Shown: positions 2,253 to 8,279 of the stretch, piece after piece
Numbering within the stretch: the stretch's first letter is position 1
Layout: each line of letters starts with the position of its first letter
Source of the DNA: Gluconobacter kondonii
GTDB lineage: Bacteria; Pseudomonadota; Alphaproteobacteria; Acetobacterales; Acetobacteraceae
DNA length: 64,000 nt
NCBI RefSeq assembly: GCF_002723995.1
Contig: NZ_BEWP01000005.1
Coordinates: forward strand, 1-64,000
Direction: 5' to 3'
Notes under the pieces: generated by a model
Seen by the model: the letters and a program-made list of their open reading frames with translations, nothing else
Told to the model about the DNA's origin: nothing
Databases searched by the model: none
Program-made: the position numbers and the translations under genes

Positions 2253-3221
2253 ATGAGGGAAATCGTCGCCGTCGATATCGGTGGAACGCACGCACGTTTT
2301 GCAATCGCGACCATCGAGGATGGCAAGGTCATCACACTGGGTGAGGCCACGACACTGAAATGTGCGGAACATGGCAGTCTGGCGCTGGCCTGGGAAACAT
2401 TCGGCCGCTCCCTGAATCGTGACCTGCCGCGCGAAGCCGGTATTGCGGTCGCCTGTCCGGTCAGTGGAGAAATCCTCAAACTGACCAACAATCCGTGGAT
2501 CATCCAGCCCAGCCAACTCGCCGCGCGCCTGCATCTCGATAATTTCGTGCTGGTCAATGATTTTGGAGCTGTGGCCCATGCCGTAGCACAGGTCGATTCA
2601 TCCTATATGAAACATCTGTGTGGGCCAGATATCGACCTTCCCACCGAAGGTGCCATCACGATTGTAGGGCCGGGAACCGGACTGGGTGCTGCGTGCCTCC
2701 TTCGTCGCAACGACCGGTATTTCGTGATGGAAACCGAGGGTGGTCATCTGGACTATCCTCCCCTCGACGAACTGGAAGACAAAATTCTTAAAGCCCTGCG
2801 TCTGCGCTTTCGCCGCGTTTCCGCAGAGCGGATTGTCTCTGGTCCGGGACTAACCAATCTTTATGAAGTCATTGCGGAAATACAGGGCTGGCCCATTACC
2901 CTGCGTGACAACCGCACCCTGTGGCAGAACGCCCTCGACGGCTCGGACACCGTGGCCGTTGCCGCACTGGAACGCTTCTGCCTGAGCTTGGGCGCAGTCT
3001 CCGGCGATCTGGCACTCGCGCACGGAGCACGAGGCGTCGTGATTGGTGGTGGACTGGGCCTGCGACTTGCAGACAGCCTCGGCCATTCCGGATTTGCCGA
3101 ACGCTTCGTCGCAAAAGGGCGTTTCGAGACAATGATGACCGAGATGCCGGTCAAGATCATCACCCACCCACAACCCGGCCTGTTCGGAGCCGCCGCCGCA
3201 TATGCGGAAGCCCATCCGTAA
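2253..3221 (+). CDS. glk: glucokinase
   Basis: This is an ATP-dependent glucokinase of the proteobacterial Glk family (322 residues, normal length), phosphorylating cytoplasmic glucose to glucose 6-phosphate. The phosphate-binding DIGGTHAR is at residues 8-15, the probable catalytic Asp103 is in VNDFGA, a second phosphate loop is GPGTGLGAA, and the glucose-contacting ETEGGHLD follows. A GAGGTGCC Shine-Dalgarno-like stretch directly precedes the ATG. In acetic acid bacteria most glucose is oxidised in the periplasm, so this enzyme would feed the smaller intracellular pentose-phosphate flux (family and group knowledge). A 12-bp inverted repeat follows the stop codon. Confidence 0.92.
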   Translation: MREIVAVDIGGTHARFAIATIEDGKVITLGEATTLKCAEHGSLALAWETFGRSLNRDLPREAGIAVACPVSGEILKLTNNPWIIQPSQLAARLHLDNFVLVNDFGAVAHAVAQVDSSYMKHLCGPDIDLPTEGAITIVGPGTGLGAACLLRRNDRYFVMETEGGHLDYPPLDELEDKILKALRLRFRRVSAERIVSGPGLTNLYEVIAEIQGWPITLRDNRTLWQNALDGSDTVAVAALERFCLSLGAVSGDLALAHGARGVVIGGGLGLRLADSLGHSGFAERFVAKGRFETMMTEMPVKIITHPQPGLFGAAAAYAEAHP

Positions 3222-3232
3222 CACGGCAATAT

Positions 3233-3267
3233 CTTGGATTTCCGAAGACGACCTCCGGAAATCCAAG
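3233..3267. repeat. 12-bp perfect inverted repeat after glk
   Basis: CTTGGATTTCCG at 3233-3244 is the exact reverse complement of CGGAAATCCAAG at 3256-3267, with an 11-nt loop. It starts 12 bases after the glk stop. There is no following T-run, so it is not a canonical intrinsic terminator on either strand. It could be a 3'-end stabilising hairpin or a protein site. Confidence 0.7.
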
Positions 3268-3281
3268 CACTGACATCAAAG

Positions 3282-3306
3282 AAAAAAACGCCTTATTTTT
3301 GGCGTT
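3282..3306 (-). terminator. intrinsic terminator of the tailspike-like gene
   Basis: On the minus strand the arms AACGCC and GGCGTT (3301-3306 and 3287-3292) flank an 8-nt A-rich loop and run directly into seven T residues. The hairpin abuts the stop codon of the gene ending at 3308. Confidence 0.8.
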
Positions 3307-3307
3307 C

Positions 3308-6154
3308 TCAATACAGATTGGCGGTTACAGCGCCGATATAGAACGTACATTTCGGAAGGGATTCCGTATCCAGAATCAACGCGACATGCGTGGCAAACGC
3401 AGGCGCACCGGCCCCTATCGTGTCTGTTTCCAATTCACCGGGAGTTCCCGGATTTCCCAGATATCCCGGTGATGTCCCATGAGAGAGCCATTTGGTATAA
3501 CCGGCTTTTGGAACGTGGATATCGTCCTCACCACAGAACAGATTGGCCCCGCCAAAAGTAGCTCTTCCGAACTGGTCCGACCCGATCACCTGCACAAAGA
3601 ATGTTCGGAAATATAGAACCGCCAGATCCGCATCATCTGTGGGCATGACGTCATTGGTTGAGACGGCTCCCGTCGACAGGTCATAAGGAAACAGGACATT
3701 GAGCGCGATGTTCCCAGACTGGTATTTCTCAATCGGGACGCAAATGACAATTCTGTCGTTCCGGCTCTGCCCCTGCGTCTGAACCTTCAGAGACGCCGGA
3801 TAGCCATTAAACATATAGTCCGTCGAAAGTGCGGCGCTGGCCCCTTGGGACGTCCATTGGTCAATCCCCGCAACATCCTCCGAATAAAGACCGCCCGTCA
3901 GTCCGACGCCTCCATTCAGCGTCAGAACGCTTTTTGATTGCGGAATGAAAAACCCGGCCAGACCCAGCGGATCGGAAGTCCAGTTATTGTATGTCCCGAC
4001 ATTGGCGTTGCCGGTGTTGACCGAACTCCTGATCTTAAGCTGACCCGGCCCACGCAAAGCCCTGCCATCCGCACAGGTCAGATTGTAAAGCTGCGTCTCG
4101 TGGAAAATCATCTGAGACATATTAGTTTCGAGAAAGACCGGTGGGCCGGGGAAGTTTGCGTGATTGCCCGCCCCGAGGAACATGCCGCCGTGGCAGATGA
4201 TCGCACCGCTGCCTTTGCAGTGATAAAGCGGTTTGTCATACGCAGACGGCCCCATCATCTCCATGTGGCAGCCATGGGTCTCGATGCGTCCGGCATTATT
4301 GATGATGCACTGGTCCGAGTAATCCAGCGACGTGCCATAGAAGGTAAATTCACCGCCACCTGGATTATTGATGATGCAGGCGGAATTTCCCAGACTTCCG
4401 CCATACCATCTGTAATTCTCACCGGCGTTGATGCTGCCCTGAAGAAATTGAACACAAACCCCACAATCACCGACGGAAAAATCCCAATATTCTGACAGAT
4501 ACGCACCGCTGCCGTAGTTTATGCCAACGCCAAATGAATTGACGCTGCCTGTCTGAAAACTCTGAACGGTCCCGTCTATGTTTTCATAGGAATTGTACCA
4601 GATGCCGATGAGACCTGAATCTCTTCCCGGTCCGTTGATGGAAAAACCCTTGGTCAGCAACCCCAGAGGGTAATGCTCTGTCGCACCATCTCTCGTGGAT
4701 AATACCGCCGCATTCCGGTTCAGCTTCGTCACCGAGAACCGGGTGAATGTGGCGTTTACATACCCGGACACGGACACGACCACGAACTGCGTACTGTCTT
4801 CGGGCACATACAGAGGCACGGAAATCGAACCTGTCACCGGAACATCTGACAGATTGGACAGGGTGACGCTCGGACCCTGCATGACCCAGCTGGACTGCCC
4901 CGATCCGGGACTACCGCTGTTGACGCCCAGACCGATGCTGCCCGGCTGGCTGTTCAGCATGGCATACGACCCGCCGAGTGTGCAGGAATACTCGATCTCG
5001 AACGTATATGCGCCCTTGGGAAGCGTCAGCTTCTGCCCGAACTGGTTCCAGTGCCCGGTTGCCGTGGACATGCTGTTGTTGTCAGAGGCAGCAATCGTCG
5101 CAGTGGTGTTGGACAGGGTGTAGGTGCCGGTGCGACCTGTGCCCGTGCCGAAGCCCGTGATCGTGGTTTGCGTACCGAGTTTCCACTGCGAATCATACAG
5201 AGGGTCCCCGACCTTGATGTCAGGGTTTCCCGTCATGGCCGTCACGGTCAGAACGCCGCCCGACACAGACCCCGTGATCTGGGTTGCATTCGCCGGATCA
5301 GTATAGACCGCCATACCCTTCTCGAAGACGACATCCGTGATCTGGGCGGGAGAATAGATTGACGCATTGACGAACGCACCGCTGGCATTGCCGGTCGCAA
5401 ACGTGGGGTCGTCAATATACTCCATAACCGTGTTCACGGCCTTTAGCGCCGTAAAATCCAGTATGGAGTTCGTGAAATCCCCGAACGACGTCCCCGAAAT
5501 CCAGATCAGAGGATTGTCGTCCAGCGCGACCGCATCATTACACATGATGTAATGCAGCGCAGGCGAACTGATGCCCTGGCCGGAATTGCAGACGGTCTGG
5601 ATGGCGACAAAATCGAACTCCTGATCCAGACTATAGGCAATCGGAAAGACCGCCTGAGCCTCGGCCAGCGTCGAAAAATAGCCGGACAGTTTGTGACTGT
5701 TCCCGTCACCAACGGCGCCAAACCATTGCGGATTGAGGCCACCCTGATAGACGCGCCGATACGTGGTCCCGCCAGCCGTCACGATAATGGTGCCGAAATC
5801 TGACACACCAGCTTCCGAAGAGCGGACGAAGAGACCTGCCGCGCCACGCCTTAGATCCGTACCGTCCCAGGACGTCAGCATGACCGCAGCCGGCGATGTC
5901 GTGAGCGCCAGAAACTCTGCGATCGAAGCCACACTGGCGCGGATGCTGGAAGCCAGCACATCCGCAACACTAGCCCCATCGAGCGTGCTGGCCGCATCGA
6001 TGGTGCCGGACTGGATCGACTGCCGGATCGACTGGCCCCCGTCTGCATCCACTTTGTTGCCAAGAGCTGCGGCGACCTGCGTCGACTTGACCAGATCGGC
6101 CAGAACCCCCGTGTCGACCACAGATTTCCAGGGAGGCGTGAAATTCTGAACCAT
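3308..6154 (-). CDS. phage tailspike/tail-fibre-like beta-helix protein
   Basis: This is a large protein of about 948 residues, rich in Gly, Ser, Thr and Asn with few charged residues. WFGAVGDG at residues 144-151 is the usual opening of a pectin-lyase-type parallel beta-helix in phage tailspikes and related glycan-binding proteins. Roughly residues 480-680 show the irregular short-strand pattern expected of such a helix. The first 140 residues would be the particle-binding head domain by analogy. The ATG at 6154 has AGGA seven bases upstream. The frame continues open to 6283 through a hydrophobic extension, which I consider less likely. No capsid, terminase, tail-tube or lysis gene is nearby, so this is an orphan. 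The enzymatic activity and receptor are unknown. Confidence 0.65.
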   Translation of the reverse strand: MVQNFTPPWKSVVDTGVLADLVKSTQVAAALGNKVDADGGQSIRQSIQSGTIDAASTLDGASVADVLASSIRASVASIAEFLALTTSPAAVMLTSWDGTDLRRGAAGLFVRSSEAGVSDFGTIIVTAGGTTYRRVYQGGLNPQWFGAVGDGNSHKLSGYFSTLAEAQAVFPIAYSLDQEFDFVAIQTVCNSGQGISSPALHYIMCNDAVALDDNPLIWISGTSFGDFTNSILDFTALKAVNTVMEYIDDPTFATGNASGAFVNASIYSPAQITDVVFEKGMAVYTDPANATQITGSVSGGVLTVTAMTGNPDIKVGDPLYDSQWKLGTQTTITGFGTGTGRTGTYTLSNTTATIAASDNNSMSTATGHWNQFGQKLTLPKGAYTFEIEYSCTLGGSYAMLNSQPGSIGLGVNSGSPGSGQSSWVMQGPSVTLSNLSDVPVTGSISVPLYVPEDSTQFVVVSVSGYVNATFTRFSVTKLNRNAAVLSTRDGATEHYPLGLLTKGFSINGPGRDSGLIGIWYNSYENIDGTVQSFQTGSVNSFGVGINYGSGAYLSEYWDFSVGDCGVCVQFLQGSINAGENYRWYGGSLGNSACIINNPGGGEFTFYGTSLDYSDQCIINNAGRIETHGCHMEMMGPSAYDKPLYHCKGSGAIICHGGMFLGAGNHANFPGPPVFLETNMSQMIFHETQLYNLTCADGRALRGPGQLKIRSSVNTGNANVGTYNNWTSDPLGLAGFFIPQSKSVLTLNGGVGLTGGLYSEDVAGIDQWTSQGASAALSTDYMFNGYPASLKVQTQGQSRNDRIVICVPIEKYQSGNIALNVLFPYDLSTGAVSTNDVMPTDDADLAVLYFRTFFVQVIGSDQFGRATFGGANLFCGEDDIHVPKAGYTKWLSHGTSPGYLGNPGTPGELETDTIGAGAPAFATHVALILDTESLPKCTFYIGAVTANLY

Positions 6155-6296
6155 CAGACAATCCTGTTCTTTAGTGTCAGGGGGAGCAATGAGACCGAGA
6201 ACGAGCGCGCGCTGGACGTTTGAGAGCGTCACCCTGACCACGCAAGACAGCGCCGTGGCCAGCACGATGCCGGTTTCATGCATGGGGATTTTTCAT

Positions 6297-6322
6297 AAAA
6301 AAAAGCCGCCCGGGTGGGCGGC
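6297..6322 (-). terminator. strong intrinsic terminator upstream of the tailspike-like gene
   Basis: On the minus strand GCCGCCC (6316-6322) and GGGCGGC (6305-6311) form a 7-bp G+C stem with a 4-nt loop, followed by eight T residues. It would end leftward transcription coming from tRNA-Cys and the AT-rich region before the tailspike-like gene. Confidence 0.85.
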
Positions 6323-6436
6323 TTCAGCAAGAAAGCTTAGGAAGATAAGGCTTATACCTTGGTCCAAGCAGAAATTATTCAAATTGATTTTTATATATTA
6401 TGGGCACCACCAGAGTATATTCCCTAGATGTTTATA

Positions 6437-6455
6437 GAATGAAAATTTCATTCTC
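6437..6455. promoter_or_regulatory. 19-bp palindrome, possible operator
   Basis: AGAATGAAA and TTTCATTCT are exact inverted 9-mers around a single central base (6446). The symmetry and length fit a dimeric repressor site. No regulator gene is adjacent, so the binding protein is unknown. Confidence 0.45.
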
Positions 6456-6484
6456 ATTATGCCTATATCGTACATTATCTACAG

Positions 6485-6503
6485 TATTGCGTTGAACGCA
6501 ATA
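6485..6503. promoter_or_regulatory. second 19-bp palindrome, possible operator
   Basis: TATTGCGTT and AACGCAATA are exact inverted 9-mers around one central base (6494). It has the same 9-1-9 design as the palindrome centred at 6446, with centres 48 bp apart, but a different sequence. Confidence 0.45.
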
Positions 6504-6591
6504 GATTTTTTAATTTGATGCCACAGCAACAAATCCACGGTTTTGAAAAACCGATCGGAGAGTGATTAATTTTTGGGGTTAAAATTGTCTC

Positions 6592-6665
6592 TGGAGGTCC
6601 GGGCGGGAATCGAACCCACATACGCGGATTTGCAGTCCGCTACATCACCATTCTGCCACCGGACC
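6592..6665 (-). tRNA. tRNA-Cys (GCA)
   Basis: The cloverleaf closes with a 7-bp acceptor stem GGTCCGG/CCGGACC, a T arm containing GGTTCGATT, and an anticodon loop CTGCAAA giving anticodon GCA. The discriminator is U, the identity base of tRNA-Cys, and the 3' CCA is encoded. The 3' end points toward the orphan tailspike-like gene, which is the usual side for element integration. Confidence 0.95.
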
Positions 6666-6682
6666 TCGATGGAGACAAGCGC

Positions 6683-6711
6683 TATATCTCTCTTAGCGCC
6701 TGAAGGGTCAA
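6683..6711 (-). promoter_or_regulatory. promoter of tRNA-Cys
   Basis: Read on the minus strand there is a TTGACC -35 (6706-6711), a 17-bp spacer and a GATATA -10 (6683-6688), placing the start a few bases before the tRNA 5' end at 6665. Confidence 0.65.
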
Positions 6712-6821
6712 GACAGATAATTGATCTTCAGAAGGATTTTTCTTCTTCTCTCGAACAGGCTATTAAGAACTGATTCACATAACACTGTGATATAGTGCAG
6801 ACTTCAAGAGCAGGAAATCTC

Positions 6822-8279
6822 ATGACTTCAGGGTGCAATGGCGCGACAAAACTGACGACTCCCCTTGGGTTGGGTCTGCTGTCGCTTCTCCTGAGCGGAA
6901 CTGCTCTTGCCCAAAAATACGATGGTAGCGGTTCGCCGAATTTCATTCCGCACACGCTGCAAGAAGCCCTCTCAACAGCTTATCTGACCAATCCGACGCT
7001 GCGGGAAGAGCGGGCCCATCTGCGGGCAACGGACGAACAGGTTCCTACTGCACTGGCAGGCTGGCGCCCGACCGTTCAGACGGGCATGAATCTGACGTAT
7101 TATGATGGAAGTACAAATTACGCTTCCAGCGGCGGCTATCTCGGCAGTTCCCGACGTTATCAGACACCCGGATATACGGGCAGCGTCACCATTACCCAGC
7201 CACTCTATCAGGGCGGAAAAACCGTTGCTGGTGTTCACGCCGCAACGAACCAGATCATGGCAGAACGCGCCCATCTGATCCAGACTGAACAGGACGTCTT
7301 TAGCAACGTTGTCAATGCCTATGTCGGCATTATCGAAGACGAACAGCTATTACAGATCGCGATTAACAACGAACATGTCCTGCAACAGCAGGTTGAGGCA
7401 ACTCAGGAACGTTTTCACGTTGGCGAAATCACCCGGACCGACGTCGCACAGGCACAAGCTGCACTCGCAAGCGCTACTGCCGAAAGGCAACAAGCCGAAG
7501 GAACCCTACAGAGCGCTCAGGCGACCTATCTTCAAGTCGTCGGAATCGCGGCATATCCCAATCTGGAGCCGCCTCAACCGCTGAATCTTCCCGTGCATAG
7601 TGAACAGGAAGCAGTTGCTGTCGCAGTACAGAACAATCCTCAAGTCGTAAACGCGCTCTTTGCTGAGGCTCAGCGCAAAGATAATGTTTCTGTTCAGATT
7701 TCGCAGATCATGCCCAAGGTCTCTGCAAGCCTCAACTACCAGCACGCCGTCAATCAAGGGTACGGTAACTCCCTTCAGGATAATAAATTCGGTGAAATCG
7801 AATTTTCCATTCCTCTTTATCAAGGAGGGTCGGAATACGCTGCAATCCGGGGAGCCCGCCAGGACGCGCAGGCTGCTCATCGGGAAGTCGACGTACAGCG
7901 CAGAACAGCCCTGCAAAAAGCTGCCTCAAGCTGGCAGCAAATGGTGGCCTACAAACAATCCATTTCCAGTGATCGCATGGCCATTTCCGCAAATGTGATT
8001 GCACTCGATGGCGTGGAGCGTCAGGCCCTTGTCGGAACAAGCACCACTCTCGCCGTTCTCCAGCAGCAGCAAACTCTACTGCAATCCCAGAGAACACTTG
8101 TTCAGCACCTTTCAAACCTTGTCACATCTTCTTATGCAGTTGCCGCCTCAATCGGACGACTGACCGCGGTAGACCTCAAGCTGGGTGTCCCGCTTTATAA
8201 TGAAAAAGCTTATTATAACGCGGTCAAGAACAAGCTCTGGGGCATGAACGACTACGCGATCAATCAGCCAGGCCGATAA
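6822..8279 (+). CDS. TolC-family outer membrane efflux protein
   Basis: This is an outer-membrane channel of the TolC/OEP family, about 485 residues, which would trimerise and pair with an inner-membrane exporter. A signal peptide covers about residues 1-31 and ends in GTALA. The mature part opens with the conserved LQEALSTAYLTNPTL and contains two OEP repeats, each with long helical stretches rich in Gln and Ala. The repeat signatures ITQPLYQGG and FSIPLYQGGSEYAAIR mark the strand entrances. I chose the ATG at 6822 because AGGA lies seven bases upstream; a GTG at 6795 is in frame. No adaptor or pump gene is adjacent. The gene is followed by the PopZ-like gene and valS. Confidence 0.88.
   Translation: MTSGCNGATKLTTPLGLGLLSLLLSGTALAQKYDGSGSPNFIPHTLQEALSTAYLTNPTLREERAHLRATDEQVPTALAGWRPTVQTGMNLTYYDGSTNYASSGGYLGSSRRYQTPGYTGSVTITQPLYQGGKTVAGVHAATNQIMAERAHLIQTEQDVFSNVVNAYVGIIEDEQLLQIAINNEHVLQQQVEATQERFHVGEITRTDVAQAQAALASATAERQQAEGTLQSAQATYLQVVGIAAYPNLEPPQPLNLPVHSEQEAVAVAVQNNPQVVNALFAEAQRKDNVSVQISQIMPKVSASLNYQHAVNQGYGNSLQDNKFGEIEFSIPLYQGGSEYAAIRGARQDAQAAHREVDVQRRTALQKAASSWQQMVAYKQSISSDRMAISANVIALDGVERQALVGTSTTLAVLQQQQTLLQSQRTLVQHLSNLVTSSYAVAASIGRLTAVDLKLGVPLYNEKAYYNAVKNKLWGMNDYAINQPGR

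Follow-up and report, generated by a model that had tools for sequence, protein, structure and literature searches.

A solitary, constrained tailspike gene at the tRNA-Cys site of Gluconobacter, left by a decayed prophage

The window analyzed here is a stretch of 64,000 nucleotides at the start of contig C5 of Gluconobacter genome G000 (G. kondonii); between the glucokinase gene glk and tRNA-Cys it holds an intact gene for a 948-residue phage tailspike-like protein (the spike). This gene originates from a prophage that decayed by steps, and it has stayed intact and under constraint. The explanation that we prefer as a whole, a worn-down prophage whose intact spike was kept by selection, is considered moderately probable. 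An earlier note had described a lone tailspike-like gene of this length on the 3′ side of tRNA-Cys with a hairpin on either side, and the open reading frame (ORF), tRNA, and hairpin evidence bears that description out.

Origin at the tRNA-Cys site

The nearest relative of the spike that is not itself a lone gene lies in a prophage on contig 12 of G. albidus NBRC 3250 (G002:C12). Here an 81% identical spike of 948 residues is encoded downstream of lysozyme and tail genes, and is followed by a secreted-looking and a holin-like protein (both named by eye; the designations holin, sheath, portal, and hutG were given in this way throughout, with no family search behind them). By this comparison the gene belongs to the tail or lysis slot of a phage genome. 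The same arrangement is found in IMGVR_UViG_2773858035_000003, the sole IMG/VR contig recovered. Whereas the G. albidus spike is located amid tail, capsid, and terminase-like genes, that of the window stands alone: a reference set of 107 phage structural proteins has no relative in the surrounding 8 kb, a span that the contig start cuts to 3.3 kb on the glk side. The claim that no other phage gene is present holds in this structural sense and fails in another, for directly upstream of the spike lies the relic of a phage lysozyme gene. It consists of the pieces remaining after two internal deletions and a 1-nucleotide (nt) insertion, and both deletion junctions show an 8-nt overlap on both sides. 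The relic was too short for tblastn and was recognized from the DNA; the intact copy in locus L010 matches Pfam Phage_lysozyme. The start of the spike was taken as the ATG at 6154, the ORF list giving a 991-residue frame from 6283. The hairpin upstream of the relic is the same as that found 5′ of lysozyme in L010, L018, L046, and the G000:C6 prophage; terminator-like hairpins number seven in the scanned stretch against 3.4 expected from shuffles.

A less decayed state is preserved in G. cerevisiae (G005), where the tRNA-Cys site carries the same spike along with an intact lysozyme gene, a third protein that looks secreted, and a holin-like gene that is clipped. The series from the G. albidus prophage through the G. 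cerevisiae remnant to the window gives good support to the proposal of the earlier note that the gene is a relic of an integrated element. Comparison of the tRNA-Cys to glk interval across 26 genomes of the genus, one per species and the window's included, is congruent with this. All 26 possess glk; in 18 the site is empty, with tRNA-Cys approximately 15-310 bp after glk, so that the site varies between occupied and empty and the gene is not fixed in place. The remaining eight are occupied or broken. Besides G000, with its spike and lysozyme relic, and G. cerevisiae, these are G004, with a different spike on two contig ends (two open pieces of 166 and 306 residues) and a lysozyme fragment in two frames; G016, with a lone 714-residue spike flanked by two copies of the integration core; G001, with a prophage end beside glk showing apparent lysis and tail genes (by eye); G025, with a degraded element comprising an integrase and a lysozyme broken into two frames; and G009 and G024, whose contigs stop within about 580 and 280 bases. 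In total, the site holds three distinct spike types across four species. The genus comparison identifies the integration core with the 3′-end of tRNA-Cys, and a copy on the glk side is found in G001, G009 (2 mismatches), and G016, and in degenerate form in G025 (by eye). An inverted repeat after glk is common to the window and G. cerevisiae; by eye, in many empty-site genomes the tRNA end replaces its second arm.

These observations suggest the following course of events. The ancestor would have been a temperate phage of the kind found at G. albidus C12, inserted into the 3′-end of tRNA-Cys such that its lysozyme-spike end faced glk. Deletions may then have taken the part from integrase to tail together with the far attachment site, giving the state found in G. 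cerevisiae, and further short deletions would have taken most of the lysozyme and every gene downstream of the spike, giving that of the window. The spike ORF and the stretch directly before it were retained, we would argue, by selection, and the product is presumably a β-helix tailspike, which would bind a glycan of the cell surface and probably cleave it.

Selection on the spike

Divergence at nonsynonymous (dN) and synonymous (dS) sites was estimated pairwise by the Nei-Gojobori method. Between the window and G. cerevisiae spikes, dN is 0.027 and dS 0.372, a ratio of 0.073 (95% confidence interval [CI] 0.050-0.099). The dS of the flanking genes for the same pair is 0.49 (glk), 0.47 (tolC), and 0.43 (valS), and since that of the spike is near these values, it was probably inherited together with the site. 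With G. albidus as outgroup, and with codons differing in all three spikes set aside, nonsynonymous and synonymous changes number 11 and 81 on the window branch and 6 and 42 on that of G. cerevisiae; under a neutral substitution model the probability that no stop arises is 0.02 per lineage.

Two further lone spikes, sharing 54-55% identity with the window spike, are located beside hutG in G002 and G004. The two genomes have 4.1 kb in common, made up of hutG, the intergenic DNA, and the spike; this block is 84% identical and ends at the spike stop. The common upstream junction of the two spikes indicates that tail and lysozyme genes were already absent upstream when the copies diverged. The frames are open and dN/dS is 0.054 (0.039-0.071) at a dS of 0.81, which would make this pair the better supported case for constraint after decay, its timing resting on the upstream junction. 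The hutG gene of G004 shares only about 68% identity with that of G000, and the hutG gene of G002 likewise with that of G005, from which it appears that the hutG-spike block itself probably moved between species. Just 5′ of these spikes there is a hairpin (L013:10250-10535 and L012:9705-10000), the outer stem of which is kept by paired changes between G002 and G004 despite differing sequence (by eye).

As yardsticks, genes in prophages gave ratios of 0.037 (spike), 0.083 (tail protein), and 0.142 (tape measure), and the values for the two lone pairs fall within or under this range. Purifying selection outside a working prophage, the mark of a domesticated prophage gene, is thus indicated for both pairs by their substitution patterns, and the suggestion of the earlier note that the protein has been kept is to that extent supported.

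A neutral leftover, which we judge unlikely, would explain the window differently: the glk-side end of the prophage is shielded, since any larger deletion there would damage the host's own genes, and recent decay alone accounts for the intact spike. The prophage end beside glk in G001 is what this explanation would lead one to expect, and one study of cryptic prophages (PMC7744054) proposes border shielding for integrase genes. The hutG orphans, with their common junction, high dS, low dN/dS, and open frames, are difficult to reconcile with it, as is the fact that the lysozyme, the neighbor at the border, is intact in one of ten orphan loci, while the spikes are without reported stops in their matched stretches.

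Several results weigh against the preferred explanation as a whole. No integrase is present among the ORFs of the glk to tRNA-Cys interval. A copy of the tRNA 3′-end elsewhere, which the earlier note had proposed to look for, did not turn up: a search for a 20-nt core, in which up to 3 mismatches were allowed, found the tRNA copy alone in the 64-kb window and likewise at the G. cerevisiae site, and showed both copies in G016. The single match to the promoter consensus in 3200-6700 is on the strand opposite to the spike. The tRNA-to-lysozyme spacer aligns poorly between the window and G. cerevisiae; two related prophages may therefore have decayed independently, and recently, as the neutral explanation has it, and part of the low dN/dS perhaps dates from the prophage era. 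For the hutG pair the downstream flanks differ, leaving only the upstream junction in common. The lysozyme relic has a dN/dS of 0.28 (95% CI 0.09-0.69) against 0.27-0.32 for intact lysozyme pairs and, being no more relaxed than these, it provides no decay clock. Lastly, dN/dS is 0.208 over 306 codons between the G004 spike at tRNA-Cys and the copy that lies at the G004:C11 contig end.

Recurrence of lone spikes in the genus

Searches with profiles of the N-terminus and of one C-terminal type revealed 22 spike loci in the genus (18 and 8 places, 3 of them common, with two G004 contig-end places joined by synteny). Ten of these are orphans: the 8 kb around them, or less where a contig ends, contain nothing related to the structural reference set. 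Four are at tRNA-Cys, one at tRNA-Arg, two at hutG, one at G001:C42, one at tRNA-Glu with an integrase in G010, and one among insertion sequences in G003. The count was 11 before the end of G004:C11 was removed, a contig end with neighbors resembling genes of other prophages. By comparison, orphans account for 0/9 capsid loci, 0/7 tail-protein loci (seven of eight places were checked, G017:C1:24044 being left out), and, after inspection, 2/16 terminase loci. Fisher's test gave p = 0.002 for 10/22 versus 0/16 and likewise for 10/22 versus 2/32, values subject to sampling biases: the reference proteins were picked by eye from 13 prophage segments, some at loci later scored, which are prophage by construction; profile A1 was partly built from orphans, biasing 10/22 upward; and related loci (G000 and G005:C3; the hutG pair) are not independent, so that the ten represent eight events.

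Four of the 16 terminase loci lacked a reference-set match, and two of these (G007:C7 and G004:C14) have sheath-like neighbors by eye; G002:C30 and G018:C110, at about 35% identity, are the orphans. A 575-residue protein approximately 35% identical to phage terminase is encoded in islands without structural phage genes (L143:1495-3222 and L144:5085-6812). Among the capsid loci, two of nine had a single reference match and a satellite-like look. L150:4661-13727 (G022:C175) and L151:4692-13813 (G001:C106) possess integrase, portal, protease, capsid, and primase genes by eye and no tail genes, and resemble capsid-forming phage satellites.

In prophages the usual neighbor of the spike is the lysozyme; among the orphan loci it is intact only in G. 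cerevisiae. Relics are found in the window, at the G004 tRNA-Cys site, and in G005:C2, tblastn found none at the hutG, G001, G016, and G003 loci, and the G010 locus gave a weak match (E 0.002) outside the spike interval. No stops were reported inside the matched spike stretches, which in the profile search span 33-75 residues.

At L098:6556-10158 (G010:C10), a tRNA-Glu, a tyrosine-recombinase-like integrase, and a 652-residue spike stand together, the 8 kb around them being free of structural phage relatives; they may form an integrase-plus-spike mini-element or be a remnant. This is the only lone-spike locus with an integrase next to the spike. Together with the G016 spike between tRNA-Cys and a second core copy, and the three spike types at one site in four species, it lends some color to the notion that lone spikes hop between tRNA sites as minimal cassettes by means of integrases acting in trans. 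We consider this improbable: the second core was not found for the window and G. cerevisiae copies, the three lysozyme relics point to longer ancestors, and the G010 locus contains no exact repeat of the tRNA-Glu end of at least 11 nt.

In the wider family, matches at E≤1e-10 came from 10 of 397 sampled Acetobacteraceae genomes; in eight the match covers just the β-helix or the N-terminus. Matches of the spike to plasmids and named phages are partial only.

The protein and its possible role

Four PHROG families match the spike inside residues 106-222, three of which are tail families (best E 5.9e-10); the best match overall (E 3.8e-13) is to a family without known function. Sequence likeness to the solved tailspikes gp49 (4ru4; phage LKA1) and gp27 (4ru5) spans residues 138-213. 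Pfam and NCBIfam returned no match, and the match to a cellular enzyme family that by the earlier note would refute its reading was thus not found; a single cellular enzyme was rejected on this ground and on the prophage location of the nearest non-lone relative.

Structure prediction for the full-length protein is unusable (predicted local distance difference test score, pLDDT, 37.6). The domain modeled from residues 480-800 has a mean pLDDT of 63.6 and is more confident over most of residues 499-711 (about 80 on average), where a right-handed β-helix is predicted for the single chain, such as forms the body of tailspikes; of the trimeric β-helix for which the earlier note had proposed a structure prediction, this is the part that was recovered. 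VIA-align placed the Klebsiella K2-2 tailspike (8iqe) at the top (Z 21.6, root-mean-square deviation 2.6, 235 residues aligned), with CBA120 TSP4 (5w6h) tied at Z 21.1, and pectate lyases and pectin methylesterases next at Z about 15-17, as is expected because the β-helix is a common fold. Identity to the five best fold matches is 11-14%, and residues ~200-480 of the spike are unmatched. No PDB structure was matched by Foldseek alone at E≤0.001; it returned two viral matches, both weakly named. As to the putative glycan-binding or anti-receptor function raised in the earlier note, the predicted fold matches that of phage depolymerases. The spike is presumably expressed, trimeric, and active on glycans.

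Table 1. Features of the window, with the loci of genus proteins that have signal-peptide-like starts
Feature	Position	Strand	Basis and remarks
glk (glucokinase), conserved neighbor	2253..3221	+	family match; genus comparison
Inverted repeat between glk and element	3233..3267	.	sequence; by-eye comparison
Terminator-like hairpin past spike stop	3284..3309	-	hairpin scan
Tailspike gene, intact, 948 codons	3308..6154	-	ORF reading, PHROG matches, dN/dS; relatives occupy post-lysozyme prophage slot
Predicted right-handed β-helix, residues 499-711	4022..4660	-	confident part of domain model
Residues 138-213, similar to N-terminal part of solved tailspikes	5516..5743	-	4ru4 E 8e-16, 4ru5 E 3e-13
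N-terminal ~75 residues, putative particle-attachment domain	5930..6154	-	alignment A1 and genus search; common to genus prophage spikes
Phage lysozyme relic, 129 bp, in-frame fusion to spike	6155..6283	-	recognized from DNA
Terminator-like hairpin, upstream of lysozyme relic	6302..6325	-	hairpin scan
tRNA-Cys (gca)	6592..6665	-	3′-end is integration core, two copies in relatives; spike on 3′ side
Outer-membrane efflux protein (TolC type), conserved neighbor	6795..8279	+	family match; genus comparison
Spikes or tail fibers with signal-peptide-like start	L014:7840-9957; L061:11005-13371; L063:6956-9289; L016:11072-13609; L060:325-1863; L062:1054-3108; L051:17398-19542; L098:8200-10158		crude own rule

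What the product does for its host is a matter for tentative proposals. One that we regard as possible is that it serves as a spare receptor-binding protein, fitted in trans to the particles of other resident prophages, such as that at G000:C6. This role was chosen because the N-terminal domain stays constrained (dN/dS 0.09 versus 0.05-0.08 for the remaining spike) and G000 possesses a cognate tail: four proteins compared from the tail module of the C6 prophage are 84-92% identical to those of the G. albidus C12 prophage, and its spike slot is occupied by a different spike of 569 residues. The proposal suits G000 and G002. It does not suit G005, G004, G016, G001, G010, and G003, in which the cognate tail protein has no match at E≤1e-5, and this absence from six genomes makes a role for the host nearly as likely. 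In prophages of the genus a variable cargo slot lies between the tail-fiber gene and the lysozyme (L018:18442-19791; L059:17703-19748; L046:8241-9227; L057:16931-18653), with contents including a Na+/H+ antiporter-like protein and an AAA ATPase weakly matching anti-phage ATPases.

Such a host role would be that of a domesticated glycan-active protein which, lysis-released or exported, trims the exopolysaccharide of its own cell or of competitors, or masks a phage receptor. Lone spikes in the six genomes without the tail protein, constraint on lone copies of the 948-residue type, and a fold common to polysaccharide-active enzymes are all consistent with it. Virion proteins are expected to assemble in the cytoplasm, which makes signal-peptide-like starts odd; by a crude rule of our own these are found in 11 of 20 spikes (from 20 of the 22 loci, some of them lone), in five of six other tail fibers, and in none of 14 other phage proteins. 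By the same rule the window spike itself has no such start, and a purely cellular role would have no need of an N-terminal domain nearly as constrained as the rest. On balance we find domestication by the host rather unlikely.

Intact prophage, tailocin, and satellite can each be compared with what the window locus contains. It has neither the integrase and structural genes nor the two core copies of an intact prophage at tRNA-Cys, nor the integrase and regulatory genes between attachment sites of a phage satellite. Tailocins are a use by the host of phage tail parts; the window spike differs from them in having no structural phage relative over the 8 kb searched on either side (less toward the contig start), and no sheath, tube, or baseplate genes stand beside it. 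The temperate phage phiAP1 of acetic acid bacteria, a whole and active phage (PMC8566455), is integrated at tRNA-Ser; it and the window element are both found at the 3′-end of a tRNA in acetic acid bacteria, though not of the same tRNA.

Enrichment of tail-fiber genes in cryptic prophages is already known (PMC7744054, and Bobay et al. as cited there), and that paper leaves the reason open. The cryptic prophages described there resemble the present case in keeping a receptor-binding gene and losing lytic genes; unlike them, the window remnant has dwindled to a single intact gene, is of a kind found again in several species, and is accompanied by dN/dS estimates. The searches made of the open PubMed Central literature showed no report of a tailspike that stands alone, is constrained, and recurs at tRNA sites, a coverage from which subscription papers are mostly absent. 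A broader and somewhat doubtful possibility is that the genus maintains a chromosomal reservoir of lone tailspikes at fixed tRNA sites, types of which are swapped between species, selected, and used either in trans by prophage particles or by the cell on surface glycans. Against the known enrichment, the window offers an unusually clean case, and its question is directly testable, as the genus grows in laboratory culture, has members with the empty site, and includes a resident prophage with a matching tail.

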